Shown here: positions 1,272-31,990 of the stretch, piece after piece
How the letters are laid out: the number at the start of each line of letters is the position of its first letter
Numbering within the stretch: position 1 is the first letter of the stretch
Source: Tetraselmis striata
Taxonomy: Eukaryota; Chlorophyta; Chlorodendrophyceae; Chlorodendrales; Chlorodendraceae
NCBI GenBank assembly: GCA_006384855.1
Contig: VCJN01002610.1
Span: 1 to 64,000 of the forward strand
Direction of reading: 5' to 3'
DNA length: 64,000 nt
Program-made: the position numbers and the translations under genes
The notes under the pieces: generated by a model
Seen by the model: the letters and a program-made list of their open reading frames with translations, nothing else
What the model was told of the DNA's origin: nothing
Databases searched by the model: none

Positions 1272-1275
1272 AATG

Positions 1276-1802
1276 TGCGACAGTCTAGGGTGCCTCACGC
1301 AGGTCAAGCAGACAAGGCTGTCGTAAACACAAAGAAGGCAGCAGAGAGAGAAAGAAACAATGGTTACAACGTTGTCACCACCCGCCGCTAGTTATGCGTA
1401 TGGCTAGCTCACAGCTAGCCACCACCAAGCGGCACGCGCACTGCTAAGCGCGTCACCGTGGAGAGTCGTGCCTTGAAGTGTCGAACAGGAGGTCGTCGCT
1501 AAGAGACCTCCGCACATGTAGTTGACACATCAGTTTATACACAAGTATACAACTGATGTTACAGAGGCAGGTGCATTATACATATATGCCCGCTACGGGT
1601 ACGCACATGCGTATTATCCCGTAACTACTACTGAACAGTGTACCGGTACCAGTAGGACTCATCTCATGATTCATCATCCACCAGTACTCGTATTGTGGCG
1701 CGTGACACACGCGCTCACACATACGATACAGCAGCAGGTACTCGTACATGAATGATGCTACGATCATACAGTACCCGTACAGAGTATGCCATTATTGTCA
1801 CA
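1276..1802 (-). repeat. 3' LTR of the gypsy element
   Basis: 527 bp, starting TGCGACAGTC and ending TTGTCACA on the plus strand. It is almost identical to 7635-8161. The open frames inside both copies (for example 1522-1755 and 7881-8114) are duplicated LTR sequence, not genes. Confidence 0.95.
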
Positions 1803-1822
1803 CTACATCTCTCCCCCCTTGA
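1803..1822 (-). other. Polypurine tract of the gypsy element
   Basis: On the minus strand a purine-rich run (AAGGGGGGAGAGATGTAG) lies directly upstream of the 3' LTR, the usual site for plus-strand priming in reverse transcription. Confidence 0.75.
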
Positions 1823-1856
1823 CAATAGTGTGAAATAGCATTCCACAGGCAGTTTA

Positions 1857-3300
1857 ATTTGCAGTCGGCACACGTGCCGGGTATTTATGCATATGCTCCA
1901 CAAATTCAGGTGACTTTACAAAGTCCAACCATTTGGGAGTAGCCATAAAATCCTGCAATGCTATTGTCCTTTTAACATCAAACAAACGATGCCAAACAGG
2001 GGCAATAGACTCATCCGCAAAGTGAACAAGAAATTGCAACTGAGTACCACGTAAACCGGGCATGGAACCGATCTTAACGCTGGTAATCTTGTCAATCTCA
2101 TACTCATCATCAGAGTCGTCACCGGTACCAACAACAAGAGGTACATGCGGGCGCAACGGCGCAGTGGGACAGGGTCTCAAGTTATTAACATGAAATACTG
2201 GGTGCAACTTAACACCAGCAGGTAATTTCAGTCGATAACTATGACCGCCAATTCTCTCTACAATAGAAAATGGGCCAAGCTGCTTGTCCATCACCTTTTT
2301 GCAAGGCTGACCTTTGACCTTAAGCAGACGGGTATCCACAAATACTCTATCTCCAACATTGAAGATAGGAGGATTGCGCTGTTGCCTAACACTAGGTCGA
2401 ACAGTCAATTCATCTTTATGGACAGCCAACACTGACCGAACCAACTCGTGAATCTCCTTCATATCTTGGATACGTTGCTGAGCATCACGAGAGAATGCTA
2501 TTGTTGGTCTCATACCAAACAATACATCCGGAGGCGTTTCAGGATTGAAACCATACATAACCTCAAATGGTGCATGCTCAATGCCAAGTGCTTTGTTGGA
2601 ATTATACGCAAATTCCATCAATGGTAACTGGTCTACCCAGTTTGAACCATCGAAACAACAAAACGCACGAGCCAACTCAGTGACTATGGCATTAATGCGT
2701 TCGGTCAAACCATCTGTTTCAGGATGTTGGCCACTAGACATGTTCAATTTAGTGCCAAGTCTCCGCCACAGAGTGTGCCAGAATGCAGACAAGAACCGTG
2801 GATCTCTATCAGAGACGATCACACGAGGTATTCCATGCAGCCTGAATACTTCCTTCAGAAATAATTCAGCTGCCTGTCCACCAGTCACGTTGACTGTGGT
2901 TGGAATAAAATGTGCTTGCCGGGACAGATGGCAACACACAACCAACATAGTATTATAACCATTACTCTCAGGTAACTCGGTTATAAAATCCAAACCAACC
3001 GTATGCCATGGACGTGGCGGTACTGGTAAGGGCTGTGTTGGTGCAGGTGGCTGCGGACGTGCACGAACACGCCGGCACACCGAACATTGTTCACAATAGG
3101 TTTTCACGTCATGTCGTATGCGTGTCCACCAAAAACGGTCCAAGGCACGTGCCAAGGTGCTTGCATAAGCACGGTGACCAACAGAATCATGTAGCTCATA
3201 CAATATCTTATTGATGATGTCACGATTGGTTGGTATGCAAAGACGTCCATGTCTCCAAAAATAACCATCGTGCTCTACCACATGACCGGACTGCTTCCAC
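1857..3300 (-). CDS. Integrase and chromodomain-like tail (pol 3' part)
   Basis: The frame carries an HHCC zinc-binding head (ELHDSVGHRAY... then CEQCSVC). A DDE core follows: D in VGLDFITELP, D in VSDRDPRF and E in DGLTERIN, so the catalytic triad is present. A GPFSIVERIGGHSYRLKLP segment is the usual C-terminal integrase module. The last ~90 residues (YEIDKITSVKIG... to VWHRLFDVKRTIALQDFM) resemble a degenerate chromodomain of the kind that targets chromoviruses to chromatin. The upstream edge is a break: RNase H lies in another frame and the switch falls at the C homopolymer near 3300. A one-base length change there would explain it. The terminal stop is just inside the 3' LTR boundary region. 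Confidence 0.9.
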
Positions 3301-3829
3301 CCCCCCCCATAAGGAGTAGAACGCGTCCTCTGCATATCCAGCCTTAATAAGGTGGAGAATATTGTCATCAAGGCTAAGTGACGACGCACTTACAGCCGAC
3401 AATACCGCAGTACATGGGCGATGTTCACTCACGAGTGATTCAGCCGCGTCCGGCACATCCCCGGTCCAATATAAGCAACCGAAACCAATCGGCTTAAAAT
3501 CCGGTCTACGCGACAGCGGATCGGCTTCATTCCATTTGCCCTTTCGGTATGCAAGAGATATGGACCCAACAAACGGCTGCAAGTCGCGTACATAGCGCAC
3601 TTGTCGCCGGTTCAACCTTTCTGCCGGTTGCCTGAGCAGATGACGCAGGGTGTCATGATCTGAGACAACAAGGAATCGACAGCACCCTTCAAGGTAACAA
3701 CGCCAGTGCTTAATTGATTCACAGACAGCCAAAGCTTCCAAATCATAAGCACTGTAGGTATTACCACGCTCAGCTGCATTCAGCTTTCGCGCCCAGTAAC
3801 TCACTGGTTGAGGACCTCCTCCTTGGTCC
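3301..3829 (-). pseudogene. RNase H C-terminal part and linker, frame-shifted
   Basis: Contains VSYWARKLNAAERG, YDLEALAVCESIKHW and FLVVSDHDTLRHLL, the middle of a gypsy RNase H, followed by NEADPLSRRPD, which holds the last catalytic Asp. It is out of frame with the upstream piece because the 7-bp string TTGGTCC is present in three tandem copies near 3820-3840. Removing two copies (14 bp) would restore the expected Leu-Asp-Gln-Gly-Gly-Gly-Pro junction. It is also out of frame with integrase at the downstream C run. Confidence 0.85.
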
Positions 3830-4354
3830 TTGGTCCTTGGTCCAGTAGCACTGCAGCAAGCCCTACGTTGGACGCATCTGTCGCTACGGTGAACGTCGCA
3901 TCCGCCCCCATGGAAGGAATGGAAAGACACGGAGCGGAAATCAGTCGCAGACGAAGGGTCTCAAAGGCTTCCTGACACGCCGGTGACCAGTCAACATGAA
4001 CTGGTTTAGACTTACGCAATAAGTCAGTCAATGGTGCAGTTAAATAACTGAAATGATGAATAAACTTAGAGTAGAAATTGCAGAATTGTACAAAACTTCT
4101 GACTTCACTCTGAGTTTTAGGGACAGGCCAATCCCTAACTGCAGCCACTTTGGCCTCTGAAACAGACAATTTACCATCAGCGACGGTATACCCCAAATAA
4201 TCCATAGATTGCATGCCAAAGAAACATTTCTTTAATTGCAACCTCAGATTATATTCATTCATTTTCTCAAAACTAAACGAAGGTGCTTTATGTGGTCATC
4301 ATAATTATCTGAATATATACATATATCATCCAGATACACCACCACAAAGTCACG
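3830..4354 (-). pseudogene. Reverse transcriptase palm end, connection and RNase H start
   Basis: Starts in the frame that encodes the VVVYLDD catalytic box of reverse transcriptase, which is shifted relative to the upstream fingers and palm. It continues through LRLQLKKCFFGMQSMDYLGY and VRSFVQFCNFYSKFI (thumb and connection) and the RNase H start TVATDASNVGLAAVLL. Only the frame break near 4355 and the 7-bp repeat expansion at 3820-3840 separate it from its neighbours, so it is part of one former pol frame. Confidence 0.85.
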
Positions 4355-5295
4355 CAAAATGGTCTCAAGATGTCATTCATCATGCGCTGGAAAGTGGCTG
4401 GGGCATTGCACAAACCAAATGGCATTGCAGTCCACTCCCATAGACCATCAGGTGTCTGAAACGCTGTCTTGTGGATGTCCTCCTCTGCAATGGCAACCTG
4501 CCAATAACCTGATGCTAAATCCAGATGGGTATAGCAACGGGCATTGCGGAGAGAATCCAACGTTTCATCAATTCGCGGCAAAGGATACATATCCTTTCGA
4601 GTGACCTCGTTCAGCCCTCGAAAATCGACACACAACCGAAGGGATCCATCTGCCTTCTTAACAAAAAGAATAGGCGAATCAAACTCAGATTGACTAGGAC
4701 GAACAAGTCCAGCGGCAATCGCATCTTTGAGTTGGCGATCCAATTCAGCACGTTCAGCGGGAGACAAACGATTAAGTCTTTGGCGTTTCATTTTGCCAGT
4801 TAACTCAATTTTGTGATCCCATGGCCGATGAACAGGCGGCCTGTTGACTGGACGCAAAATTTCAGGAAACTCGTCATACAACAAATGACGAATAGCATCC
4901 TTTTGCTCTGGTGTCATAGCATTGTCTAAATGCAGGTCAGGATCATCCTTTATAACCGACATTTCAACGACATAGAATTCAGCCAAAGAATAATGCTTAG
5001 ACGCACGAGCAGTTTTGCGCATCAATTTTTGTACCCTAGTGGAAGTAATCATGCTACATGCAGGAGTACGACCCACTATTACAACAGGTACATGGGTTCC
5101 ATCCATTAGAGTCATGATACGTTCCGTACCATACTTAATGGTAACTTGCGCTTCATCAAGCCAAGTTAAACCCAATACAATGTCGGAGACTTTGAGCTCA
5201 CGCAGTATATAAAATACTCGATTCTCAAATACATGTCCTCCAACAGACAGAGACACAACAGTTGTATGGCAACATGAAACTAACACGTTGACCAT
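4355..5295 (-). pseudogene. Protease C-terminal part and reverse transcriptase N-terminal part
   Basis: The first ~60 residues (VFYILRELKVSDIVLGLTWL) are the flap and C-terminal half of a gypsy retropepsin. A linker leads to LRLCVDFRGLNEVTRKDMYP, HLDLASGYWQVAI and PFGLCNAPATFQRMM, which are RT blocks 1-4. The YLDD box follows in another frame, marking a frameshift near 4355. The start of the protease lies in yet another frame upstream, so a further break sits near 5270-5295. Confidence 0.9.
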
Positions 5296-5533
5296 TAGCC
5301 AAACGGACAGGTGTTCTGGATTTCAACTTTTGTATCTGCAAGTTGTTTCTGCGCACAAAGTCCTCAGATATAAAATCTAAAGATGCCGCATTATCAACCA
5401 GTGCATCCACAACGGCGTCATCGTTAATTGTCACATTAACTTTCAACAATGGCCTGGGGTCATCCCAACGAGTCAAAGAAGCAATCTGAGGCAAACTTTG
5501 CCTTTGCATACTCCAAAATGATGGATCAGTCAC
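5270..5533 (-). pseudogene. Retropepsin active-site region
   Basis: The sequence VNVTINDDAVVDALVDNAAS then LDFISEDFVRR matches the active-site loop of Ty3/gypsy proteases. The usual D-[ST]-G is replaced by D-N-A, a variant to note because the Gly/Ala after the Asp is normally small and conserved. The rest of the fold continues in a different frame below 5295. Confidence 0.75.
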
Positions 5534-5745
5534 ATTGACAGCATCACACTCATTTTAGACTCAGATGCACGTTCACCAATACCAACGCTAGAATCTGCAA
5601 CTTTTGCAGAGTCCACGTTAAAACTCACATTTGGACTTGTGACAGTTTTAGGTACAAAGTCATCAGGAAAAGCACAGTTAGTATCAACTAACCAAATGTT
5701 AACCCCATACTTTGGCGGTCTAACATCTTCCTGGACTGTGGCATT
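5534..5745 (-). other. Gypsy internal linker, no domain seen
   Basis: This ~210-bp stretch between the methyltransferase-like and protease pieces shows no recognisable domain and no single long frame. It is probably degenerate coding linker. Confidence 0.4.
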
Positions 5746-6375
5746 TTAATGAGACCACCTGGTGAACAAAGGTGTCTTTGCCGGGTATTGCTGCAATAGT
5801 TTCCAATGCTTTGTCAAAGCACTGAATCTATCAAATGCAGGCAATACAAACACTCCTACAGTATGTTCTTTAGCCCTACTGCGGCATTGCTCAAAATGCC
5901 TCGCAATAGACTCAGTCATATGCCATGGAGGGTGAATAAACACACGTTCATTCGACAAGTCGCGCGATAATATCGAATCTTGTTCTGAACAGAACGGCAA
6001 GTTTCGATGGGTATTCAGACCCTCATTATCCGCACAGCCCTCCAGCGTAAACTGGAACATCTCATGTAAGGGATCGAAGACTCTATCGACCAGTCGCCAC
6101 TCGGCACTAACTGCAGTCTTTCTAGGCATACGACGCCTCAGAGCCTTTACGCGACGATGAGTCGAAACTTTCCGAGCACCCATTACACAGGCTACTGGCA
6201 AAGTCGTACCAGACTCGCGTACACTATTCGAGTTCTCATCAGTAGGCGACTCAACATAGTCGTTACTACTCTCAGAGATGACGACATCGTCACTCGAACA
6301 TGTACTCGTCACAGGTATATCGTCATTCAGACGTGCATTAGACAATAATGCGGATACCTCAGGTGCCAATGACAT
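5746..6375 (-). CDS. Methyltransferase-like domain inside the gypsy polyprotein
   Basis: A 209-residue frame. Residues ~90-209 read WRLVDRVFDPLHEMFQFTLE, GCADNEGLNTH, LPFCSEQDSILSRDLSNERV, FIHPPWHMTESIARHFEQ and, near the end, KTPLFTRW. This pattern (a D/E-GCADN box, a PPW box, then a hydrophobic strand ending LP) resembles Dam-like DNA N6-adenine methyltransferase domains that I recall in some algal and oomycete retroelement polyproteins. The usual [DNS]-PP-[WFY] catalytic box is HPPW here, so activity is doubtful. It sits between the zinc knuckle and the protease. Activity and function are inference; the domain resemblance is moderate. Confidence 0.6.
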   Translation of the reverse strand: MSLAPEVSALLSNARLNDDIPVTSTCSSDDVVISESSNDYVESPTDENSNSVRESGTTLPVACVMGARKVSTHRRVKALRRRMPRKTAVSAEWRLVDRVFDPLHEMFQFTLEGCADNEGLNTHRNLPFCSEQDSILSRDLSNERVFIHPPWHMTESIARHFEQCRSRAKEHTVGVFVLPAFDRFSALTKHWKLLQQYPAKTPLFTRWSH

Positions 6376-6492
6376 ATCGGCAACAGTAACTTCGCAGTCA
6401 TGCGACTCGACAGTTACTGGACAGCATGATGTAACACAAACATCACTTACATCCCTATCTACTGAGCTGTCAGCAGCAGAATAAGGGCACCC

Positions 6493-6972
6493 CTATTTCA
6501 TCTTAGGGCAGTCTTTCAGAAGGTGAGCCTCACCACACTTAAAGCATGTTTTAGCAGCCAGATGCTTAGCATACTTCTCAGGCTCATGCATTTTTGTGCC
6601 GAGGCGACTTACCGAGAGAACGGGCGCCACTAAAAGACCATAGCAAAGGTCGCCGAACAGCGTGTCGACTCGTTGCTTATCTCCTGTCGAGATATCGCCG
6701 GTATGTCGACATATTCTTGACGCGTACTCAGCGGAAGTTACCGGCACTCCATCAGCACGTCCTGCTGTCATCTGTAGTAACAAACTTACCTGCATGCAAA
6801 CTATAGATGCAAATGCAGGTGCAGATGCTACTATAGATGCAAATGCAGGTGCAAATGCTACTATAGATGCAGATGCAGGTGCAGATGATACTATAGATGC
6901 AGATGCATATGCAAATGCTGCTATAGATGATGCAAGCTTCTCGTTGAGGATCTTGTACTTGAGCCGAAACAT
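6493..6972 (-). CDS. Gag-like segment with CCHC zinc knuckle
   Basis: 159-residue frame ending in a nucleocapsid-type knuckle, CFKCGEAHLLKDC. The spacing is C-x2-C-x3-H-x4-C, one residue shorter before the His than the usual knuckle. The N-terminal half is a low-complexity ASIVASAPAF repeat encoded by the minisatellite at 6805-6925. It should bind element RNA if functional. It is separated from the Nudix-like frame upstream by about 140 bp without a clear continuous frame. Confidence 0.7.
   Translation of the reverse strand: MFRLKYKILNEKLASSIAAFAYASASIVSSAPASASIVAFAPAFASIVASAPAFASIVCMQVSLLLQMTAGRADGVPVTSAEYASRICRHTGDISTGDKQRVDTLFGDLCYGLLVAPVLSVSRLGTKMHEPEKYAKHLAAKTCFKCGEAHLLKDCPKMK
6805..6925. 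repeat. 30-bp minisatellite in gag
   Basis: About four degenerate units built from GATGCAAATGCAGGTGCA plus a GCTACTATA spacer. They encode the Ala/Ser/Ile-rich repeats of the gag-like frame on the minus strand. The unit is a multiple of three, so copy-number change keeps the frame. Confidence 0.8.
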
Positions 6973-7111
6973 GAACGGCTATACGACGAGCTCCCAGGTC
7001 GCAGTCACAGCAGGTCGTTTATCAGCATGTGCAAGTCCGGCAGTAGTCGTCGACTTCAGTCCCACTGTACCGAGCTGCTCCGGCAGTCCAGTACAGCAGC
7101 TACTGGTGCAG

Positions 7112-7555
7112 CTAGGTGCGATATATGACTGGAGCGTGCGACCTTCCTGGCGCGCTCATTTCAGGCGTGCGCATTTCAGGCGTGCGCATCTCACTGACTA
7201 TCTTTCTGGATGATAGCCTAGATGCATATAAGAAACATTTCATGCCATCTATGATGAGAACGTCAAACAGTTCTAAGTCGTCCTCAGAGACAAGGAGACC
7301 AGTTTCCTCGCGGAGTTTCCGCACAGCCGTGCCGCGCACAGTAATGTCAGATGCTGTCGACTTTCCGACTGGTATGAAAAGAGTCGATCTAGCATTTGGC
7401 TCAGTCGTCAAGATCACTTGACGTTCGACAGAGTGACCTTTACCATAAGTGACCACTACGGCAGCACAAACCTTAGTAGTCGACAGGTCGACAGAACTTT
7501 CCTCGTTGAGCAGCAGCTCTCGGCTCTTGCCAGCAGAATTCATCGACTCGGACAT
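7112..7555 (-). CDS. Nudix-like domain at the start of the gypsy gag region
   Basis: A 147-residue frame starting 80 bp inside the 5' LTR. Residues 29-115 have the Nudix order: strand VCAAVVVTYGKG, a strand VILTT, FIPVGKSTASD, the helix AVRKLREETGLLV, then strands ELFDVLIIDG and KCFLYASRL. The signature G-x5-E-x7-R-E-U-x-E-E-x-G-U is approximated at residues 64-87. The catalytic EE pair (REETG) is present, while E at the first position is D and RE is RK. Nudix hydrolases cleave nucleoside diphosphates linked to another group. A role inside a retroelement, such as nucleotide or cap processing, is inference. The C-terminus ends in a short tandem SEMRTPEMRTPEM repeat. Confidence 0.6.
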   Translation of the reverse strand: MSESMNSAGKSRELLLNEESSVDLSTTKVCAAVVVTYGKGHSVERQVILTTEPNARSTLFIPVGKSTASDITVRGTAVRKLREETGLLVSEDDLELFDVLIIDGMKCFLYASRLSSRKIVSEMRTPEMRTPEMSAPGRSHAPVIYRT

Positions 7556-7617
7556 GTCGAACTGTTCAGTCGAGTTATCTCAGATAAAGCAGTGGAAGCT
7601 AGGATAAGGAGCGCAAC

Positions 7618-7633
7618 AGTCGCTCCGAAACCA
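7618..7633 (-). other. Primer-binding site
   Basis: On the minus strand TGGTTTCGGAGCG lies one base inside the 5' LTR. Its complement ends GCTCCGAAACCA, the form of a tRNA 3' end with CCA. It resembles, but does not equal, the initiator-Met type TGGTATCAGAGC. Confidence 0.7.
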
Positions 7634-7634
7634 G

Positions 7635-8161
7635 TGCGACAGTCTAGGGTGCCTCACGCAGGTCAAGCAGACAAGGCTGTCGTAAACACAAAGAAGGCAG
7701 CAGAGAGAGAAAGAAACAATGGTTACAACGTTGTCACCACCCGCCGCTATTTATGCGTATGGCTAGCTCACAGCTAGCCACCACCAAGCGGCACGCGCAC
7801 TGCTAAGCGCGTCACCGTGGAGAGTCGTGCCTTGAAGTGTCGAACAGGAGGTCGTCGCTAAGAGACCTCCGCACATGTAGTTGACACATCAGTTTATACA
7901 CAAGTATACAACTGATGTTACAGAGGCAGGTGCATTATACATATATGCCCGCTACGGGTACGCACATGCGTATTATCCCGTAACTACTACTGAACAGTGT
8001 ACCGGTACCAGTAGGACTCATCTCATGATTCATCATCCACCAGTACTCGTATTGTGGCGCGTGACACACGCGCTCACACATACGATACAGCAGCAGGTAC
8101 TCGTACATGAATGATGCTACGATCATACAGTACCCGTACAGAGTATGCCATTATTGTCACA
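7635..8161 (-). repeat. 5' LTR of the gypsy element
   Basis: Nearly identical partner of 1276-1802. It begins TG and ends CA, and is followed by the target duplication AATG at 8162-8165. Confidence 0.95.
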
Positions 8162-19551: not shown

Positions 19552-19585
19552 ACGTAACAGTAATGTAACCTATTTTGCCCCGAGG
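19552..19585 (+). repeat. Left terminal inverted repeat of the transposon
   Basis: Begins ACGTAACAGTAATGTAACCT and pairs with 31957-31990 with mismatches at positions 14, 28 and 32 of 34. Confidence 0.9.
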
Positions 19586-19659
19586 CACGCGGTGCATTGT
19601 GGTTAGGTCTAAATTAGGGTTTGGGGGCAGCAGTGGGATTGAAAGCTAATATGAATGCC

Positions 19660-19880
19660 GGTTGGTTCATTTTGTGCCAAGTCGGGGAAACCAATTCCGT
19701 CCAAGCAGGGACAAATCAAAAGAGTGAAGGAAACGGGATGGTTACAAGTAGTTTGCGCCGTCGGGGGCTGAAACTCTGTCCAAACTGGGACAAAAATAAG
19801 GGCGGGGGCCGTGATGGCTACAAGCAGTTTGTGCCGTCCGGGGCTGAAACTCTGTCAACGCCCGGACAAAACATATGAGC
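19660..19880 (+). repeat. Left subterminal repeats with GTCC...GGGACAAA palindromes
   Basis: Two diverged units of about 78 bp (around 19738-19800 and 19813-19875) share TACAAG.AGTTTG, GGGGCTGAAACTCTGTC and a GGACAAAA end. A third related stretch lies at 19660-19720. Each contains an inverted GTCC/GGAC pair (for example CTGTCCAAACTGGGACAAAA near 19776). These match the motif at the other end and are likely transposase-binding sites. Confidence 0.7.
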
Positions 19881-19901
19881 GGCTAATTTTGCGGAATTGT
19901 A

Positions 19902-22900
19902 CTACATATCATCATCTTCGATCACATAATCCCCTCGGCGCTCTGCCGCCTGTTGCCTCCTCTTCTCCGCCGCTGCACGCTCTTCCCGCTCCTCTAACTC
20001 GGTCATTGGAAGGGGTAGACCCGGCCACTTCTCGAAGTCACTTGGACGCAGTCTTTGAGTCTCGTCCCATGGCTTCTCTTTGAGCCATGAGGTCATCCTG
20101 GACTTCATCCCAGCGATTTGCGTCTTCTGGTTGTCAATGAGGATAATCTTCAAGTTCCTGTGCGTGAACGAGTAGGTAGATTCCATATGGTCCCACCACA
20201 CGGAAAAGGCCGCAGCGACCTGGAAAAGGCGTGGCAAACCGCACAAGGCGTTAATTTGTTTATGCTGACCCCATTAAGACACTCACCCGGGTTGCACCCC
20301 TCACGCACCGCGGTTGTCCCGGTTCCGGCTGTGACGTCGACGATTGTTGTCCCGTCTGTTGCCGCCATCTTAAGGTGCTTGGCGAAGAGAGCGATAGGCT
20401 TTTGGTACTTGTTCACCGTCTGTCTGTTCTCGTCCTTCAATTTCGAACTGTCTTTGAAGTGACCCAACATGATGGATGTAGAGAACCTGGAAAGGCACAA
20501 CCGGCTTAGCGAGTAGAATATACAAGCCGGCTATTTTCCACGGATCAAATCTCACCTTCGGGGATCATTGAAACGGATGTTGTCAGCTATGATGCTTGGC
20601 GGGGGCTTCCTGACGTAGAGGTAGTACTCAGCGTCGTGACGCAGAGAGCTGCCCATCTTCATCCCGCAATCCTTGGCCCAAGTCAGGACGTGATAGATGA
20701 GGTCCTCAGCTTGTTTTTGAACGGCTGTGATTGCGGATCCAAGTTGCTGGTCCGAGAGGTGAATGAAGAAATGGCACCCATCCAGAGCAGTGTGGACGTC
20801 AGAAGATCCAGTCAGGATATTCAACTGCCTGCGCGGGGGTAAATCGGGAATGAGATAAATGAAAGCACAGTCATCTAGTACGCACCGGGGTTGTTGGGGT
20901 TGTCTTGCCTGGCGAAAGCAAACACGTCGTTGAAGTCGTCCGTACCCCACGCAGCATCCTTCGAGTCCCATGTGTGCGAACCAGCTCCGAAAAGCGCGTC
21001 GGCAATGAAGACTGTTGCCTTTTTGGCACGAACTGCCGACATGGCGTCCGCGGCGAATTGTTTTGTCGCGGGAGCCTTGAAGTTCCCCTCCACAATGCAA
21101 GTCTTGCAAAACTCCGTGTTCAACCACACCTTGTCATCCTTGTCGACCTCAAAGCCCTTGGGCATCACCGGAAGTGCCGCGGCCTGTGTGTGGTAGGAAA
21201 CAGATTCGGGTTAATAGCTCACAACGAAAATTTAGAAGAGCATTTGTGCTTGCACAAGATCTTAGTTACCTTCATCGATATCCACAGCTCATTAGAAACA
21301 TTCGGAGCGGAAACCGCGATAAGCTCCGGCGCACATGCCAGAAGAGCAAACTCTATGAAGAAGGAGATGACCAAGTCCGGCATCTCATTCTTGATGCGAT
21401 ACGCCTCACTCCTTATGGTGGTGTTGGTGGCCGCGATATGCTCTCGAACCGGTAGTGGTGTGAGACAATCGGCGGATTTCATGTCCCCCCATCTGGCAGG
21501 AGGGGTCAGCAAGACCATCAACGGACCGGAGCGATGAGCACCTTTGAACAAATCCTGGAACCTTCTAGGGAAGCCTGTTGGGCCGAGGTCATCAACCTTG
21601 GCTCGGAACTTGGTGATGGCGTCAAGGCGAGCGGCCGCTTGCTCATCCGACACTTTGTCATCCACATCCATTTCGATGATGTGGTCCGAGAGATATTTCC
21701 CCCAGTTCCTGGCCGGTTCGTCTGGCGTCAGCAGTTGGAGTTCCTGTCCGTGTCCCTTTGCCGTGCCAATAGCATTCATGAGCTTGATGCTTGCTCGACG
21801 CAAGAGATCGCGAAACCGCCAGGTCTCAATCATCGCGAGCCACTCCGCGTTGGTGTGCGTAGCAGCCATGGGTCCATTGTCGCCGGCATGCTTAATGTCA
21901 TCCACCAGCTCGTAGAGGCAAGGGGTCACACTGTGCTCGCCTTGGATGAGCAGTCCAACCACCAGGTACATCTGGCCCACAGGGAGATCCGCGCTGTCGC
22001 TCTGCTTGGCAAGAGACGGCTCGTCTAGCCAGGGCGCATGGGGTCCAAAGCCGACATCCTGGGTCGAAAAACAAACTTCAGTACGGAGAAAGGAATGATA
22101 GTATTCCATGTGATAAAGACACTGGGGTCGGTCACAACTTACCTCCATGAGTGCGACTCGGAAGTGAGCTCTGTCTTTGCCGAAGCCGTACTTCTTATTA
22201 TCGAGGATTGCATTGATAGGCTTCCGAATTGCTTCGTAAACCTTGCTCACTTCCTTCTGGGTGAGTTGCCTGCCGGAATTGAGGCGCTTGACTCTATTGA
22301 GTTCTTGCTCGTAGTACACAAACAAGTCTCCGAGTTTGGTTCTGGCTTCGTCCCATCCTCGAACCCCGAGGTCCACATGCCGGTAGGCTTCAGAAATCTG
22401 CTCAAGGGGCTCAAAAACACTGCGCAAATCATTTGTCAGAATCTAGCAGCATTAACAACACGATAAATCTTCATCATGTACGCAGCTCACCGTTGTGGGC
22501 GCGAGCACAGGTCAATCAAATTTGAGAACTCGCCGCTCTTCTCATCTTTGATGCCGATCTTCTCAAGTTCAACTTGAAGAACTTCAGACTTCTTGAACTC
22601 CTTCACTACCCTGATTTGCGGAAGTGCCCTAAAGCCGGGGCGATTTGCATCCTGTTCTGCATACCAGCTCTCGAAACATCTGCGAAGGTTCTGCAGAAAC
22701 AATTGCACCGATTTCAAAATTCCTAACGCTTGTACCTCGATGACAAACCGTTTCGTCCCGCTGATGACAGAACATTTCGTCCCGCTGATGACAGAATGGT
22801 TCGTCCCACTGATGACAGACCGTTTCGTCCCACTGATGACAGAACGTTTCGTCCAGCTGATGACAGACCGTTTCGTCCCGCTGATGACAAACCGTTTCGT

Positions 22901-25900
22901 CCCACTAATGACAAACCGTTTCGTCCCACTGAGGACAGACCGTTTCGTCCCACTGATGACAGACCGTTTTGTCCCACGGATGACAAACCGTTTTGTCCCG
23001 CTGATGACAAATCGTTTTGTCCCGCTGATGACAAACCGTTTTGTCCCACTGATGACAAACCGTTTTGTCCCGCTGATGACAGACCGTTTCGTCCCGCTGT
23101 GACATATTTTTAACCCGCTAACGACAGAACGACTTTTGTCACACTTTACGCCTATTTGCTGCCACGGTTAGCTAAATAGTAATTTGGGAGAATGGGTCAC
23201 TCACCAGGAGTTTGTGCATCGACGTGTCTCCCACGACGGTGTGACCCGCCTCGTTGAGCTTCATAGACATGTAGCGGCAGACTTCCGGCGAGAGGCCGAT
23301 GTACATCTTTGTCGACGTGAGGTGGATGCCTTTGTTGGCGTTGTAGATTTCCGGGTAGTTTTCTTTCACCATGCGCTTCGCCTCCCGTCTGTGGCTGCCG
23401 TCGATGTTGGCTTGACGCGCGCCGTGGGCGCCAAGAAACTCGACGATGACGTCGATCTCTGGCTTGTAGGAACTTGAATCCGCCAACCTCGGGTTCTCCC
23501 CGCCTTGGTCAGCTGCGACTAGCTCCTTGAAGTTGGCCATGGTCTGAGCGAGGGGCTCGTACTCATCGGAGAAAAAATCTTGTTTAGGGACTACTGGAAA
23601 GGACACCGAGAAATTCTCGGCGGACAGGGAAGGATTTCTCTGAATAACAAATGCAAGAAATGGATGTCAGTAAGTTGCATCGTGTATTGATTTATATGTA
23701 ACTACACATATCTGATCCGGATAGGTACAACAGGTCGCGATAGGCTTTTACCTTGTAGCTTTGCGCCACCATATTGCAGTCTTGCAGCTTTGGGGAACGG
23801 AATTCAAATTCCGGCGGCGGAGCGACGAACTTATCGGATATGAAGCTGAAAATGTAAGGCAGCCCCGTATCCTTGTTGACCACGAGGTTGACTCTGTCGG
23901 CGTATAACGTGTTGATGTCGCCACCGTGAGATGTCTTCACCTCTGGATCATCAATCTCGACTCTGAGGTGGCCGTAAGAGATCCAGTCGACGGCACCGGT
24001 GTTGTGGAAGCCATTCAAGGCCGGCGGGACGGCCAACGTGTTGACGTATGGAAGCGCGTTCTTAAAATCCTTGTCAATGTTGGCCAAGTCATCGATGTCA
24101 ATCTGACCCGACGCGAAACCTGTCAGCGCCTGCGCCAGCACATTGCGCTCGACCAAAGTCCATGCGTAGTAAGACTGGAACCGCGGTTGGAAGGAGAGTG
24201 GCGGCTGGATCGCGTGGAGTAGCAACCTCTCAAAGCTGACATCGATCCTGTACTCCTTGTGCACTGTCAAGCGATAAGGTTCAAGAGATATCTGCGGTAA
24301 CAAGCACAAGAATATTAATACTTATTGAAACACATTGACACGAATTCAGACATCATATAAGCTTTACTCACCTCGTAGTTTCCGGCCGAGTCCAGCTCGA
24401 CGTCCTTGATCTTTCCGATACACGCGAGAAGTGGCCCCTTCGGATCATCGAAAAAGTCCTTGCCAGTCAGCAGGCTCGCCTTGTGCAATTCGATGTACAA
24501 ATAGATCTCGACCTCAGCACTTGCGTTCTTGAACCAGTGGATAGTCCAGCTCCTTGAGGTAAAGTCGCTGTAGGAGTCATGTTCTTGGGACCCGTCCCTC
24601 TCGTCAAAGAAGTCGTCGTAAGAAACGACCGTCATCAGCTTTGTCTTCCTCTCGGGTCCGGGAGTGCCGGTGATGTCGAGAGCTTGCTTACGCTTCTCCG
24701 CCGCCCGTTGCCTCTGTTCTTCCTCTGTGCCGAAGACCTCTTCATCCGTGCACATACAGAGGAATTCAGGAACCCTTCTCGGAGCCTCGGCAACAGGGGC
24801 TCGAGAACCAGAGGCTCCAGAACCAGACGCTTGCCCGGTAGTCGGCGCTGGAGTCTCGAGCTCGGTCTCTGGCTCCGGGTCAAGCCGGGTGGGCTCTGGC
24901 TCCGGCTCGGGCTCCGGCTCGGGCTCCATCTGAGCGGGCTCAGTTTCAGGCTCATGCCGAGGCTCTGGCTCGGGCTCATTGGGCTCTGTTTCAGGCTCAG
25001 GCTCAGTGTGCTCTATTTCAGGCTCAGGCTCTGTTTCCGGTACTTGAGGCGGGCCTTTAGACAAAGAAGAGCCTTGATTCGGGGAACCTGTAAAGAATGA
25101 GTAGAGAGTACTCAACACACCTGCGGTGGGCGTCACGATTAACTACTGAACGGTATCGCCATACACCATCAAAGCCAAGCGTAATTTTTCTTACCTGGGG
25201 ATCCCGATTTACCAGCTGCTTCCGACGCGGTTGCCTGAGCCAATTTACGACCTGTTGGAACGTCAGATAACTCATTGACGAGAAAGTAATCGAAGGGAGT
25301 GAGAAGGCAGGGATTGATACTTTCAGTCACAATTACCTGGAGTCACAATCGTCTCTGAAACCTTCTCTTTTCCCTTGGATTCCTTTGAAGCTTGGGTCGC
25401 TACTGGCTCATGTGCACGTCCTTTCGAACCTGTCAACACACATGATTTTAATCAATGTCAATGTGACACAGTGCACTCACAAAGGGAGGGATTGATACTT
25501 TCAGTCACAATTACCTGGAGTCACAATTGTCTCTGAAACCTTTTCTTTCCCCTTGGATTCCTTTGAAGCTTTAGTCGCTACTGGATCTTGTGCGCGTCCT
25601 TTCGAACCTGTCAACACACATGATTTCAAACAATGTCAATATGACACAGTGCACACACAAAAATCATATGATTGGAGAGGCAAGGACCTGATTGATAGTA
25701 AGCTTGCATGAGCTTTTCGTAATCCATTAGCCTTCGCGCTGTCTGCATTTGAGCATCTGAGAGGACCTGACCGCTCTTGATTCGGTCCCTCAAAAGCAAG
25801 GCGGCCGATCTTTCTCCTTGCGAGTGCGTGCCGTAAGCCGTCACCCTACCTCCTAAAAGGCTCGGTTTCCAGGGGTTACCTGATGCCTCAGCGCCGGCTC

Positions 25901-27283
25901 TAGCTGCAGAAGCTGAGGCTGCACGGCTCTTCTTCGCCGCCGGCTGCTCTGGCACAGAAGATGACGCCTTGTGTTTTCTCCCTACTAGCGCTCCGAGCGC
26001 ATCGAATTCTTTTGCTTTCTCGGTAGGTTTTGATGTCCGCTTGGACCTTCGGCCTACAAATATCATACCCTGTCAGATCGTTTCGTCCCGCTGATGACAG
26101 ACCGTTTCGTCCCACTAATGACAGACCGTTTCGTCCCACTGATGACAGACCGTTTCGTCCCACTGATGACAAACCGTTTCGTCCCGCTGATGACAAACCG
26201 TTTCGTCCCACTGATGACAAACCGTTTCGTCCCACTGATGACAAACCGTTTCGTCCCACTGATGACAAACCGTTTTGTCCCACTGATGACAAATCCTTTC
26301 GTCCCACTGATGACAAACCGTTTCGTCCCACTGATGACAAACCGTTTCGTCCCGCTGATGACAAACCGTTTCGTCCCACTGATGACAAACCGTTTCGTCC
26401 CGCTGATGACAAACCGTTTCGTCCCACTGATGACAAACCGTTTCGTCCCACTGATGACAAACCGTTTTGTCCCACTGATGACAAACCCTTTCGTCCCACT
26501 GATGACAAACCGTTTTGTCCCACTGATGACAAACCCTTTCGTCCCACTGATGACAAACCGTTTCGTCCCACTTATGACAAACCGTTTCGTCCCACTGATG
26601 ACAAAACTATTTTCAATACATTATGTACTGCGGTTTAATAATGTAATGTCTTTAAGTACTGCGCTTCACACTTATATTAAACCAATCCTTACGGCGGAGT
26701 ACAGGCAGAGGTTCCCCCTGGCCGCTCTTCAACCCCACCCGCTCCCACCACCAATTAGCATCCTTACTGCTTGCCGCAGCTGCCTCGACGGGACGTAATA
26801 CTACCCTGCAGGACCATGATGCCGCTCGTCTCGTTTGGGTTTCTATTCCCACTCGTCTGCCTACACCTCGAGCGGTCCTAGTTTACACTGCTTCTACAGG
26901 GAACCCTAACCGAACTCGCTAGATCTGGCCGCATCACGCGTCGAGCAGGCAGGCGGCTACTATACGCTGCCACTCGTCTGCCTACACCTCGAGAGGTCCT
27001 AGATTACACCGCTTCTACAGTGAACCCTAACCGAACTCGCTAGATCTGGCCGCATCACGCGTCGAGCAGGCAGGCGGCTACTGTACGCTGCCACTCGTCT
27101 GCCTACACCTCGAGTGGTCCTAGATTACACCGCTTCTACAGTGAACCCTAACCGAACTCGCTAGATCTGGCCGTATCACGCGTCGAGCAGGCAGGCAGCT
27201 ACTGCACGCGCGCGCAACTCACCTGGGGTGGCGTCGTCCTTGTCTTCCTTGTCCTTGGCAGGCTCGTTCTTCTTCGGCGCCAT
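19902..27283 (-). CDS. Transposon partner protein with C-terminal beta-class methyltransferase fold
   Basis: Fifteen exons, about 1565 residues. Borders: 27283-27223, 26053-25688, 25607-25515, 25429-25337, 25251-25195, 25087-24372, 24291-23752, 23639-23205, 22690-22491, 22419-22143, 22058-21270, 21183-20882, 20828-20556, 20486-20309 and 20219-19902. All phases agree, but the exon 12 donor (GTACTA) is weak; the better GTGCGT site four bases earlier breaks the frame. The N-terminus is basic and low complexity, then a long Glu-Pro repeat (exon 6), then unassigned globular sequence. Residues ~1260-1510 follow permuted N4/N6 methyltransferases: a motif IV-like strand (TVFIADALF), WD...W, EYYLYVRK, QKPIALFAKHL (motif X) and VDVTAGTGTTAVAA (motif I, residues 1450-1463), then LKIILIDN (motif II). 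DPPY is replaced by ADALF, so catalysis is doubtful. It may bind DNA or assist the transposase. Confidence 0.8.
22737..23103. repeat. 24-bp minisatellite array 1 (intron 8 of the partner gene)
   Basis: About 15 tandem units whose core is TTTCGTCCCACTGATGACAA or the TTTTGTCCC variant. The array lies wholly between the donor at 23204 and the acceptor before 22690, so it is intronic. It is read antisense by its gene. The unit is a multiple of three and lacks stops in several frames, which creates long spurious ORFs such as FVPLMTNR repeats. Confidence 0.95.
25337..25607 (-). repeat. Tandem exon duplication in the partner gene
   Basis: Exons 3 (25607-25515) and 4 (25429-25337) are each 93 bp, phase 1 at both ends, and nearly identical in sequence together with flanking intron. 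The copy distance is 178 bp. Each encodes about 31 residues (SKGRA...ATKASKESKGKEKVSETIVT). Because the exon is symmetric in phase, duplication lengthens the basic linker without breaking the frame. Confidence 0.85.
26070..26608. repeat. 24-bp minisatellite array 2 (intron 1 of the partner gene)
   Basis: About 22 units of the same 24-bp repeat as at 22737-23103 and in the same genomic orientation. It sits inside the 1.17-kb first intron (27222-26054). Many units are identical, with a C/T switch in TTTCGTCC and an A/G switch in CCCACTG/CCCGCTG. Homogeneity suggests recent amplification. Confidence 0.95.
26848..27205. repeat. Three tandem 121-bp repeats near the divergent promoter
   Basis: Units begin CACTCGTCTGCCTACACCTC at about 26849, 26971 and 27092. 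They are almost identical; each contains GAACCCTAACCGAACTCGCT and GTCGAGCAGGCAGGC. They lie in intron 1 of the partner gene, 20-380 bp downstream of exon 1, next to the shared intergenic region. Confidence 0.9.
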
Positions 27284-27824
27284 TCTGGCGGTAGGTAGGT
27301 TGACGCGGTAGATGAGCGGGTTTCTTGGTGGGAAGCGGTGAGGGAGAGGTGGAAATGACGTGGTTTCTGTCTGCCGCCGCTCTGACCCCTGCTGGACAAA
27401 CGGCGCGCGTGCGCACACTATAGTGTACCTCGTCGTCGTCATCAGGTTCATGTATTTTGCACCGCGACGAATATACAAGGCTAACTACTGCGACTATATA
27501 TTACTATTACTGGAAGATAAAATATTCCCTACTCGAGAGTCATAACGGTACGAGAGTACAGTGGCGTGGCAATAATATTCCTTCATGGGATGATATATTC
27601 CTTGGATTGGATTCGGGTGTACTTACTAGTATAGAACTATTTCCGACATACGAAAGAAGCACGAAATAACACGGTATTTGAGTCATCAATTATTTTGACC
27701 AGTACCTGGATATTATGCACCCCGGTCAACGGCCCGTCCGAGAACGGTCATCGGCCGTCACTCTTCCTCACCACAGATCACAGTCCTTCACCCCCCCACC
27801 CCCCACCCACTCGCCCCGCGCTGC
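27284..27824. promoter_or_regulatory. Divergent intergenic region between the two transposon genes
   Basis: The 541 bp between the start codons of the minus-strand partner gene and the plus-strand transposase must hold both promoters. It includes an AT-rich segment with CTATATATTACTATTACTGG near 27494, a possible TATA-type element. No 24-bp repeats occur here. Confidence 0.5.
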
Positions 27825-30800
27825 ATGGCGGCGGTCGAAAGCATGGCCTCTTCTCCAGGATCCGGCGCGTCGGACACAACAGTTACATTACCGCTGTGTT
27901 CGTGCCGCAGTGGGTACTCGTGTGATTGCGACGCGCGTGCGAGTGATCGTAAGGAGCCTGAGAAAAGGAAGTACACGTGGGGCAAGGGCTGCGATGAGGT
28001 CGCCGAAAGCGGTAATGGCAAGGTCTCGTCTCTGATCAGCAAGCGCACCTCTCGCGATTGTATCCGCCTCATGCTCGCCAAGGAGGCTAGCGAGCAGTCG
28101 CCATGCTGTTCGCGCAAGTGCGTGCACAAGCTATACACACAGTGCGGAGAGGCCCTCGTTGATGCCGTGTTGGACCGTGCGTTGACCGTATACTCTGGCA
28201 ATCAGAACCGCTCCTTTGACCGGCTCGCTCAGGTTCTCAGGGGTGGCTACGAGTCGGCATCCGACAAGTTCGATTACATGTTCGATCACGGTGGCTACTT
28301 GCGATCTTTCGATCATCGCGGCCCCATCTACACGTGTGGGCGTGCGTGGGAGGTCTTGCATCAGGTCTCGAAACACAGACGTCTCGTGGTCCAGCGGTCG
28401 GTGGTGGATAACGAACCCACGTACATCAGGCAGCGCAAGCAATACGAGAGCAGACAGACCGGACCGAGGGAGCATGTGCGCATGTTTCTCGAGCACTTCT
28501 TCTCGGATGACCTCGGTCACGTCGAGATCATGCCTTTTCATGACGGAAACAGCGAGACCTTCAAGAAGCACCTACCTCCCTGGATGACCAAGATTTGCGT
28601 CTACTACTACTACAAGTCGTGGGCCGAGGACGACAACGCCATTCTCCGTGGTGAGGCCCATTTTGTCCCACTGATGACATACCGTTTCGTCCCGCTGATG
28701 ACAAACCGTTTCGTCCCGCTGATGACAAACCGTTTTGTCCCGCTGATGACAGACCGTTTTGTCCCGCTGATGACAGACCGTTTCGTCCCGCTAATTACAT
28801 ACCGTTTTTGTCCCGCTGATGACAAACCGTTTCGTCCCACTGATGACAAACCGTTTCGTCCCACTGATGACAAACCGTTTCGTCCCGCTGATGACAAATC
28901 GTTTTGTCCCGCTGATGACAAACCGTTTTGTCCCACTGATGACAAACCGTTTTGTCCCGCTGATGACAGACCGTTTTGTCCCGCTGATGACGAACCGTTT
29001 CGTCCCACTGATGACAAACCGTTTTGTCCCGCTGATGACAAACCGTTTCGTCCCGCTTTCGCCCGAACGTTTAGTCCCACCGACGCCGGACCGATTTCGT
29101 CCCACTGATGACAGAACGTTTCGCACCGCTCGTGGCATACCGTTTCGTCCCACCGACCACAAAAGTATTTCTCCCACATAATTAGCCGATATCGTCCCAC
29201 TGCAGAGAGAACGTCTCGTCCCACTGCTGAGAGACGGTTTTGTCCCACTACTGACATACCGTTTCGTCACACTGATGACAGATTGTTTCGCCAAGCTGAT
29301 TACAGAATTATTCACCCACTACCGATATAATTATTTCGACCCACTTTAGACCGAACTTTTCTGTCTCGCATTATGAGACCTTATTTGTATACCGACCTAT
29401 CATGCCCCTGCCCCTTTGTAGAGTTGGCTGCCGAGAGCGAAGTGAAGCTCGTATCGTTCGACACTTTCCGCCGGACTTGGAAGGAAGACTTCCCGGATGT
29501 CACCACGCCGAAGGTGAAGCGATTCAGCCACTGTCCAATATGCGCGGCGGGCAAAGCACTCAGAGACCAAGCTCGCGAGATTTGCACAAAGGACATGACG
29601 CCAGAGGAACGTCAAGTGCACCGTCAACATCAGCAGCTGGTGAGGCGTCAGGTCAGAGCTGAGCAGAAGGTACACCTCGAGAGAGTGCGCCAGGAACGAA
29701 GGGATCTGAACAACGCCGTCTTCCAGTCGCGCCTTGGCCATGGAAACTTCTTCTTCTTCGAAATTGATAGCATGGACTCCGCGAAGACCCTTCTGCCTCA
29801 CTGGGTTCGCATCCCCAAGACTGTGAAGCCCGACATGCTCCTCAAGTACCACCTCACCTGTGTGAAGTACGACGGATACCGCCCGGACGACATCTACTAC
29901 TACACCAACACCATCCCCCACGATTCGTCCACGACGTGCACTCTGATATGGATCACGATCATGAAGGTGAGCTCATTAGCCTCCCGATAGGTTCGCCGTG
30001 GTTGTCCGGTAGCCATGGACTGATGAAATCTGGTCTGCGATGCAGGAAATTCAACACCGTGGTAGAAAGATTCCGTACATCAGAATCCAGATGGACAACA
30101 CCGTCAGGGAGAACAAGAATAGGAACGTGGCGGCCCTCTGCAATTGGCTTGTGTCTATCGGCATCTGCGACGTCATTCATTTGGTCTTCTTGCCTGTCGG
30201 GCACACTCACGAACGGGTTGACCAGATCTTCAGCCGCATCAGTCTTGCGCTATCTCGCAGCTCCGCCTACACAATCGAGGCCTTTCTTGACTTGGTGGCG
30301 AAGGCATTCTCGCCCACTCCGGAGATTGTTGAGCTCTCATTCTCCCTCGACTTCTCTGAGTGGTTAAGGCCCCATTTCCAAGACCACATTCAGGACATCA
30401 GTAAGCCGCACAAATTCGAGTTCACCCGTGACGACGACGCCGCGTCTGGCGGCTCGTTGCGCACCGCCTTGTGGTCCAACACACCGCTTTCTGAGCCCGT
30501 GCAGATCTTGAAGAGCGCGCCAACTGGGACGCCCGAGATTCGTGCGGGCCGGCCCCTTTTGTACGCTCTCTGCGACAAAAAGAAGCCCGACGCGGTGAAG
30601 GTCCATAGGTACTTGGATGATTTCAAGAAGGTCAGGTCGTACATCACGGACCTGGCGGTCCAGTGGCACTTCTCCCCAGTCGAGCGCGAGAGCTGGAAGA
30701 ATCTGCTGGACGACTTGGATGAGATGCAAACTGCTCCTTCGGCAGCTTTCTCCGGGTTCTGGCCGCAACGGAAAGAGGAAGTTGACGATTTCTTGCGCGA

Positions 30801-31693
30801 GCACGGGCAGACCGCGCCTGCTGAGGCACGTCACACGATGGCTACCAACGCAGACCTCAACAATGCCGAAGCCGCTCGCGTTGAAGCCGAGGTTCGTGCT
30901 CAAGTGCTTCAAGATGACAGCGCCTTCCGGGGAGTTCACGCCGGCGCCAAGGAGAGGCTTCATGACAACACATCGCCTAGCGATGCAAAGGGCTCGAACC
31001 TCGTTGTCATCGACGTCTCCGATGTGAGTCCCATTGTTTGTCGTTTTTGTCCTTTACGGGACAAAACAATTTGGTTCTTCTACCTTGCTTGTTATTTTGT
31101 CCCAGCTGGGACAAAAACGGCGTGGCGTCTCGCTCGGGACTAACATAGCTCGCGGTCTTGGTCATCGTTAGGTGCATGAGGAAGACAAGTGTCCTGAAAC
31201 TCTTGGTGATTGGGAGTCGAGATTTGTCATCGGGCTTGTGAAGTCGCGCGAGACTACCGAAGACACGTTGACCGTGGCCGTATACGAGCCCTTCCATGCC
31301 GATGCAAAGGGCAAACCCCTCATGCCCCTATGGTTGTACGCGCAGACAAAAGGAGGGAAGAAGCCAGTTGACACAAGCTGGGAGAAGTGCCTGACGCTTC
31401 CTTGGAAGCTTGTTGAAGCCGTCCCCCTATCGTACGCGAAGGCCATCCACGACGCGTCGGGAAGTCGAGAGGTGTTCAACGAGGACGGCACCATGGTCAG
31501 AAAGAAGTGGTACGGTAAAAGCGTCCAAGTCGTGAAGACATATGCGCAAACTGGGTGGCAAATCAGCCAGCCACGAAACAACTGCGTCCACGTCATGTCA
31601 ACCACCCCAGCGCAACGCAAACCCGGCGGAGTCGTCAAGTTTAACGCAGCCACGAAGAAGGACTTGCTTGAGTTGGGGATGCTCAACGAATAA
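27825..31693 (+). CDS. DUF7869-like transposase of the 12.4-kb transposon
   Basis: Four exons (27825-28650, 29422-29966, 30046-31023, 31172-31693) join in phase to about 956 residues with a TAA stop. The N-terminal part has cysteine pairs and CCSRKC (94-99), a zinc-like head. C-x2-C at 313-316 (SHCPICAAGK) follows. The RNase H-like core shows three acidic boxes: FEIDSMDSAKTLLPHW (D391), IQMDNTVRENKNRN (D474) and FLPVGHTHERVDQIFSRIS (H510, H512, D516). The DN...ENKN and GHTHE..DQ boxes are characteristic of the domain of unknown function DUF7869, widespread in protist and invertebrate repeats. I infer that it cuts and joins the element ends. No break was found. Intron 1 carries the 24-bp array; intron 3 carries TTTTGTCC palindromes. 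Confidence 0.85.
28651..29421. repeat. 24-bp minisatellite array 3 (intron 1 of the transposase gene)
   Basis: Starts 10 bp after the GTGAGG donor at 28651 and runs as about 18-19 good units to about 29110. It then decays through degenerate units to about 29360, before the CCCCTTTGTAG acceptor at 29421. It has the same genomic orientation as arrays 1 and 2, and is sense relative to this gene. Confidence 0.95.
31044..31116. repeat. Two TTTTGTCC palindromes in transposase intron 3
   Basis: At 31095-31116 two TTTTGTCCCA half-sites face each other around a GC centre, a perfect 22-bp palindrome. At 31044-31067 a looser pair (TTTTTGTCC and GGGACAAAA) flanks 5 bp. A third pair lies outside the gene at about 31769-31789 (TTGTCCCA then TGGACAAAA). 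Confidence 0.85.
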
Positions 31694-31956
31694 ACTATCA
31701 GCAACGTCTTGTGGCTAGCTAGCCGCTGGATGTAATAATCATAATAAATATTGATTTCATTGCCTCATCTTGTCCCATTTTGGACAAAATGCTCCAAAAC
31801 CAACATTGGATATACGTCGCGGCTGGCCTTCATGCTGTTGAATGCTGCACTGCACCCAAGGTCTACAAACCCAAGCTACATCACCAGTAAGTCTTAAGTA
31901 CTGATAGTAAACCCGGGAACTAGGGTATAAACAAACCCTACGGTGCAAAATGAATT
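31694..31956. other. Right subterminal region of the transposon
   Basis: Non-coding. Holds one GTCC/GGAC inverted pair near 31769-31789 and, next to the TIR, a repeat of the TIR's own ATTTTGC.CCGT motif in TACGGTGCAAAAT at about 31939-31951. Confidence 0.6.
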
Positions 31957-31990
31957 CCACGGCGCAAAATAGGTTAAATTACTGTTACGT
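31957..31990 (-). repeat. Right terminal inverted repeat of the transposon
   Basis: On the minus strand it starts ACGTAACAGTAATTTAACCT and pairs with 19552-19585 at 31 of 34 positions. Confidence 0.9.

Follow-up and report, generated by a model that had tools for sequence, protein, structure and literature searches.

The 64,000-nucleotide stretch of Tetraselmis striata DNA analyzed here (GenBank assembly GCA_006384855.1, contig VCJN01002610.1, positions 1 to 64,000; below, "the window") contains a mobile element of 12,431 bp, at positions 19556 to 31986, in which two divergent genes lie between terminal inverted repeats (TIRs). With a probability of about 0.72, we read it as a cut-and-paste DNA transposon with two genes, probably a Sola-1 element, that would combine a transposase carrying the Pfam domain DUF7869 (gene 1) with a methyltransferase-like, palindrome-binding partner (gene 2).

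The extent of the element was set by the ends of other copies, by a comparison of flanks and by empty sites. Its outer 320 (left) and 300 (right) bases were searched against the genome that it comes from (224 Mb, 2903 contigs), and the best 40 of 402 candidates were scored for each end. The match started at query base 5, just past an ACGT, for 25 of the 40 left ends and 18 of the 40 right ends; the remaining matches started at query bases 1 to 4, apart from one at base 16. The exact terminal pattern, AACAGTAATNNAACCTATTTTGC, occurs 416 times in the genome (222 + 194), against 0 occurrences of the reversed control, and many pairs among the places listed are, by eye, approximately 12 to 13 kb apart. 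A previous interpretation made from the DNA letters alone (the sequence-only reading) had proposed a 34-bp inverted repeat with 31 matches. That repeat is real: the pair at 19552 to 19585 and 31957 to 31990 (34 nucleotides, 91% complementary) comes first in a list of 75 inverted pairs from 14 kb, and the sole longer pair among those listed (37 nucleotides, 70%) is in an AT-rich region beyond the element. However, four of the 34 bases, the outer ACGT, belong to the target, and we therefore rejected the longer repeat in favor of TIRs of 30 bp (27 of 30 positions matching), the left one at 19556 to 19585 on the plus strand, beginning AACAGTAATG, and the right one at 31957 to 31986 on the minus strand. 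As expected of a cut-and-paste transposon, inverted repeats are present at both ends and are common to dispersed copies.

Directly outside these TIRs, ACGT is found at 19552 to 19555 and again at 31987 to 31990. For the flank comparison, the window element was combined with 20 copies, hand-picked from 39 other left ends for having an other end that could be located. A perfect 4-bp duplication lies immediately outside the TIRs in 13 of these 21 copies of what we call family 1 (ACGT, CCTA, CCCG, GTAC, ATGC, AACT, GTAC, CCAC, TAAC, CCTG, TCAA, GCCC and CTGC), the chance of a 4-bp match being about 1 in 256 for any one copy. The 13 duplicated words show no evident target motif or bias. Joined with a single ACGT, the flanks of the window element match eight other places in the genome across the junction (query positions 103 to 168, 79 to 81% identity), the match to the left of the junction spanning only about 24 bases, partly of low complexity. 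All four of the empty sites fetched from these eight contain ACAACGTGCTGACTT without interruption. Since these relatives of the target repeat are uninterrupted and have one ACGT where the window insertion has two, the element was inserted in a copy of that repeat, which is to say that it has moved in the past. The duplication, previously a candidate, is now fixed by flanks and empty sites that agree on the boundaries, and its constant length, together with the empty sites, is a further hallmark of cut-and-paste transposition.

Gene 1, on the plus strand, consists of four exons with GT/AG borders, at 27825 to 28650, 29422 to 29966, 30046 to 31023 and 31172 to 31693 (including the stop codon). 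The splice sites of intron 1 are kept in all seven aligned copies, and the donor that follows exon 2 is kept in six of the seven. Reassembly yielded exactly 956 amino acids (aa) without an internal stop, reproducing the protein and the three aspartates that the sequence-only reading had described: FEIDSMD, QMDN..RENKN and GHTHERVDQ start at residues 388, 472 and 509, with D391 encoded in exon 2 (29766 to 29768) and D474 (30094 to 30096) and D516 (30220 to 30222) in exon 3, which also encodes the bulk of DUF7869. The Pfam model (PF25273) scores 149 bits, against a gathering cut-off of 26; its description states no function, and the word DUF7869 was not found in the literature searched. In an alignment of 13 proteins, numbered by P0003 (adding 6 gives the window numbering), D385 is invariant, and D468, N469, N474, K475, N476, H504, T505, H506, D510 and Q511 are kept in at least 90% of the sequences. 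The resulting D-83-D-42-D spacing would suit a catalytic DDD triad; an acidic triad, together with an RNase H-like fold, is characteristic of the transposases of cut-and-paste elements. Because DUF7869 is located in gene 1 of a transposon with defined ends, a target duplication and other copies, it looks like a transposase domain. The mobile-element context first suggested for this domain is borne out by the ends, the duplication, the copies and the partner gene.

The nearest proteins are models of the Joint Genome Institute (JGI) named Tetstr1, which we take to stand for T. striata, a chlorophyte. Relatives of gene 1 include a sea cucumber protein named for DUF7869 (P0057) and unnamed metagenome proteins. 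A protein search with a diverse alignment (A1) returned 81 proteins, 80 from Tetraselmis and one unnamed, and with this outcome the attempt to link DUF7869 to a Dictyostelium Sola2 protein failed; the DUF7869 pattern matched 14 stretches in viral contigs, none of which was a relative. Three JGI gene models, P0004, P0005 and P0010, join DUF7869 to PF00443, PF00069/PF07714 or PF02348, and these joins are likely to be annotation fusions with adjacent genes.

The second gene, divergent to the first, occupies 19902 to 27283 on the minus strand and was modelled with 15 exons encoding 1565 aa (27283-27223, 26053-25688, 25607-25515, 25429-25337, 25251-25195, 25087-24372, 24291-23752, 23639-23205, 22690-22491, 22419-22143, 22058-21270, 21183-20882, 20828-20556, 20486-20309 and 20219-19902). 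Splice sites are kept in five to seven of the seven copies; the model is a prediction, in which the weak donor following exon 12 (20881) was picked to hold the frame. In the window copy it contains no internal stop, in line with the two intact, divergent, multi-exon genes proposed earlier. Its C-terminal part, in exons 12 to 14 (20309 to 21183), matches the Pfam domain N6_N4_Mtase (PF01555) at 31.6 bits, above the cut-off of 26.7. DNA methyltransferases of the N6/N4 type usually contain the motif DPPYG, with DPPY, NPPY or SPPY as the catalytic residues. At the corresponding motif IV, gene 2 reads IADALFG (aa 1269 to 1275), with the S-adenosylmethionine-binding motif I position, VDVTAGTGTT, at aa 1450 to 1459; the catalytic tetrapeptide is thus DALF here, as compared with DSNY in the second Tetraselmis family and DIPY in the five metagenome-derived elements described below. 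Further upstream, exon 8 (23205 to 23639) encodes a short, weak ParB-like motif at approximately aa 720 to 768, where an hhalign comparison with the metagenome-derived partner gave an E value of 8.5e-4 and a probability of 24 over 45 columns (VIGGSHSAEARRQLV...IYVGLTVDEAKLLAW in the latter, NIDGSHRREAKRMVK...MYIGLSPEVCRYMSM in gene 2). The label "ParB-like" for gene 2 leans on a paper on an Ectocarpus element (PMC12477816), as excerpted. Additional PF01555 methyltransferases are present elsewhere in the genome, on contigs C1010, C2009, C1597 and C803 (L085 to L088); by eye, the first of these, with DPPY, resembles a bacterial enzyme and is perhaps a contamination, and the last two, with CDLPYG, may be parts of virus-like elements.

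The gene pair recurs beyond the window. We selected 59 window-type methyltransferase hits by profile range. For 34 of them, a DUF7869 hit lies no more than 15 kb away on the other strand, in divergent layout; for 25, none does. As the pairing used 48 of 150 DUF7869 places, those on relevant contigs, and as the 150 were the best of 548 candidates, 34 pairs is a lower bound. By JGI number, 6 of the 14 gene-2 models found directly adjoin a transposase model in the list, and one more differs from such a model by two. A second Tetraselmis family (family 2) has a transposase (P0052; 73 matches) that shows 39% identity across 44% of the stretch searched and that is located approximately 7 to 14 kb from a second set of methyltransferase hits on contigs C2707, C401, C2248, C1697, C1740, C1479 and C1134. 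The partner fragment on C2707 is 29% identical to gene 2 (E value, 3e-18), scores 38.6 bits against PF01555 and contains ADSNYG at motif IV and LDVTCGTGTT at motif I. Family-2 termini begin AACATT, and a perfect 4-bp duplication (CATC, CACT, GTTA or TATT) is present in four of the seven copies for which both ends were compared. That count left out C2707 and C586, because one end was lost (the transposase-side end of C2707 was not found) or rearranged (the transposase side of C586), as well as C1735 and C1134. On C541 (L105/L106), scored as a miss, an 11-bp direct repeat, GGCACTCCACC, is found in place of the 4-bp duplication. This second family of the same layout, along with the other copies and the empty sites, supports the view of the window element as a complete DNA transposon with defined ends.

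Nine loci encoding a DUF7869 relative were found in a prokaryote collection, namely, eight contigs of an "uncultured Trichormus" metagenome-assembled genome (MAG) and one locus, L113, of an "Arcticimaribacter" MAG. The contigs look eukaryotic and plant-like, and we would guess at a fern host, for example Azolla, given the Trichormus label and the presence in L118 of a Gypsy element that resembles those of plants. Five of the eight Trichormus-labelled contigs (L114, L115, L118, L120 and L121) have the divergent transposase/partner layout, with a broken transposase in L121; the other three, shorter than 4.2 kb, were left out of the reading of open reading frames (ORFs). In these elements, the partner ORF measures 566 to 594 aa, except in L121, where it is 278 aa long; a methyltransferase exon containing IADIPYGF comes after it, and motif I, VLDLFSGT, was found in L114, L118 and L121. 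PF01555 matched the motif I exon of L121 above the cut-off (30.4 bits) and gave no match when the motif IV exon of L114 or that of L118 was searched alone. The element in L118 is whole (391 to 8114, termini AACACG.../...CGTGTT) and lies within a Gypsy pol frame, which is open when the element is excised with one 4-bp copy (AACA) and is not open with 0, 3 or 5 bp; the test covered these four lengths, leaving out 1 and 7 bp. L118 is the one of three MAG copies with a 4-bp duplication, and 5'-AACA termini are common to the window element, family 2 and the MAG element. The idea of a partner fixed to the transposase is therefore upheld by many copies, a second Tetraselmis family and the MAG contigs, and we ruled out a passenger picked up by the window copy alone.

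Both genes of the window element have introns that contain repeated palindromes. Sites of the form TTTGTC-N8-GACAAA, with at most one mismatch, number 47 in the window, where 0.16 is expected, and all lie within the element, between 19775 and 31788. They are not independent, because most sit in three tandem intron arrays: an array of imperfect palindromes with a 24-bp period in intron 8 of gene 2 (22872 to 23083), one in intron 1 of gene 2 (26154 to 26605) and one in intron 1 of gene 1 (28662 to 29258). Two single sites (19775 to 19870) stand at distances of 220 and 296 bp from the element's left end, and another (31769 to 31788) at 218 bp from its right end; intron 3 of gene 1 contains two more (31046 to 31115), at 891 and 941 bp from that end, one of which is within a perfect 22-bp palindrome (31095 to 31116). 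The coordinates of all of these refer to the plus strand. The groups of single sites hold their position within 4 bp in all seven copies; the 24-bp arrays differ in copy number between copies. Different palindromes are repeated in other lineages. GTCGAT-N7-ATCGAC occurs 13 times in L115, 10 times in L120, 4 times in L118, twice in L119, once in L114 and not in L121, and it sits between the ORFs of both genes wherever both are present. A third palindrome, CTCGATTACGCGTAATCGAG, has nine sites with up to four mismatches in L113, six of them exact, against 0 in 30 shuffles. In a strict palindrome search (arms of 8, loop of at most 8), L114, L115, L118, L119 and L120 exceed all 20 shuffles. We regard the palindromes as candidate binding sites of the partner and, less likely, of the transposase.

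Sola-1 elements make 4-bp target duplications, the length found here for both family 1 and family 2; KDZ and Zisupton elements have 8-bp duplications, and we rejected them as relatives on that account. As described in an excerpt of the report on it (PMC12477816), Sola1-1_Ec32 of Ectocarpus is a 21.5-kb giant DNA transposon in which an 1104-aa accessory gene, opposite the transposase, encodes an N4C/N6A-type DNA methyltransferase domain and a ParB-like domain. The window element likewise is a giant DNA transposon with a methyltransferase-like partner opposite its transposase, differing in size (12.4 kb), in the length of the partner (1565 aa) and in a ParB part that is only weakly detectable; the likeness is one of description. 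The gene pair in that excerpt makes the partner here one of a known kind. Sola2 elements of Dictyostelium fasciculatum and Polysphondylium pallidum, in the portion of the source that covers them (PMC3627910), have 4-bp duplications, short TIRs, a large transposase and an accessory gene, as here; by the same description, their duplications are AT-rich, whereas the 13 words seen here have no evident bias, and their accessory protein is a Fanzor (Fanzor1) rather than a methyltransferase. From the partner of a known kind and the 4-bp duplications, the element would probably be classed as Sola-1, a placement by likeness in description. The connection with Sola, which the sequence-only reading put forward as a guess from the 4-bp duplication, is in this way supported indirectly by the Ectocarpus element and its similar partner gene. 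Transposon-borne DNA methyltransferases have also been reported from retrotransposons (PMC5890265, as excerpted), although those are cytosine-5 enzymes, in contrast to the N6/N4-type domain of the DNA transposon described here.

Seven copies were compared for signs of selection. The ratio of nonsynonymous to synonymous differences (pN/pS), taken over 21 non-independent pairs, came to 0.37 in gene 1 and 0.49 in gene 2. In the frame of the window, in-frame stops are absent from the window copy, C2782 and C1547, and at least one is present in C2604, C2352, C1775 and C1497; C2604, C2782, C1547 and C1775 have frame shifts in at least one exon. Pooled over the six full copies compared with the window, synonymous divergence (pS) in gene 2 (0.052) exceeds that in gene 1 (0.020) by a factor of 2.6, as if copies had swapped halves or the halves had differing histories. 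Two shortened relatives, L079 (C972) and L084 (C1534), have gene 2 protein identities of approximately 62 to 90% by piece, with frame shifts, and gave no match, at the threshold used, to transposase exons 1 and 2 or to gene 2 exons 12 to 15; L079 ends at a contig end, where the missing exons may be cut off. On C2423 (L037), a family-1 left end is directly preceded by an extra partial end, ACAGTAATGT, possibly from insertion beside or into another copy. Outside the element, on the minus strand of the window, ORFs at 1854 to 3389 and 4288 to 5322 resemble, by eye, parts of a Gypsy-type integrase and reverse transcriptase.

In the mechanism that we propose, the gene 1 transposase would act on the 30-bp, 5'-AACA TIRs through the DUF7869 aspartate triad D391, D474 and D516 and would insert the element, by cut-and-paste movement, at a staggered 4-bp cut. 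The gene 2 partner would bind the palindromes of its own element, both in the intron arrays and at the single sites approximately 220 bp from each end, and, once bound, might mark or shelter the element or aid the assembly of its ends. With DALF instead of DPPY, binding may be more important than methylation for the partner in Tetraselmis. A wider and more tentative proposal is that DUF7869 is the transposase domain of an old eukaryotic group of transposons whose regular partner, a ParB-like DNA methyltransferase with a catalytic site altered in part of the group, would provide parS-like self-recognition of the element's palindrome arrays; with a palindrome particular to each lineage, the partner would evolve together with its array.

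Several results weigh against the reading as a Sola-1-type transposon with a palindrome-binding partner. No 4-bp match was found in 8 of the 21 family-1 copies, in 3 of the 7 family-2 copies or in 2 of the 3 MAG copies (L114 and L121); mixed-up ends, recombination and assembly are possible causes. Profile searches of solved structures gave chance-level matches alone for DUF7869, with no transposase among them; the same kind of search with the MAG partner gave no matches. The relationship to Sola-1 might also be questioned: DUF7869 could form a superfamily of its own, with the ParB-methyltransferase partner acquired separately by several giant algal transposons. We consider this somewhat doubtful, since the window element has a 4-bp duplication, since it and the Ectocarpus Sola-1 element are both giant, with the partner opposite the transposase, and since DUF7869 has the partner beside it in both Tetraselmis families and in the MAG elements.

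The role given to gene 2 is exposed in a similar way. Its ParB-like motif is weak, and searches of Pfam and NCBIfam yielded no ParB hit; its methyltransferase part is weakly constrained (pN/pS of 0.74 over the same 21 pairs), the catalytic motif is altered in both Tetraselmis families, and the shortened C1534 has no match to exons 12 to 15 in the 2.2 kb past the last exon found. These last three points would fit a passenger or decaying relic without a role in transposition. Such a gene would not be expected head-to-head with the transposase in lineages whose transposases are approximately 30 to 40% identical, nor would it be expected to retain the pN/pS of gene 2 as a whole, and the MAG partners, with DIPY at motif IV and DLFSGTG at motif I, are nearer the active form; we therefore hold a relic to be unlikely. 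As for the palindromes, their arrays could be ordinary minisatellites unrelated to the partner, given that the 24-bp arrays are tandem and variable in copy number, that tandem arrays can grow by slippage and that the strict search detected no excess in the window element (2 palindromes; shuffles, 1.3 on average, at most 3). That search likewise gave no excess in L117 and L121, and sites of the TTTGTC-N8-GACAAA type were absent from nine family-2 end stretches, the search there covering the end stretches only. Minisatellites would leave unexplained why the same half-sites stand singly, outside tandem arrays, near both ends and at the same places in all seven copies, and why the repeated palindrome differs among three lineages, which makes this alternative a possible, less favored one. 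We thus retain the reading of gene 2 as a candidate palindrome-binding partner of a DUF7869 transposase.

Three findings are new here: the association with DUF7869, the change in the partner's catalytic motif and the different palindromic repeats within three element lineages. A Pfam domain that had been without explanation thereby gains a concrete role, as what looks like a transposase domain, in an element with exact ends, a defined duplication length and empty sites. The methyltransferase-type partner, published from giant algal transposons, is found alongside the DUF7869 transposase in plant-like contigs as well as in two divergent Tetraselmis families, and the lineage-specific palindromes provide testable candidate sites for an accessory protein whose job has so far only been suggested in print.

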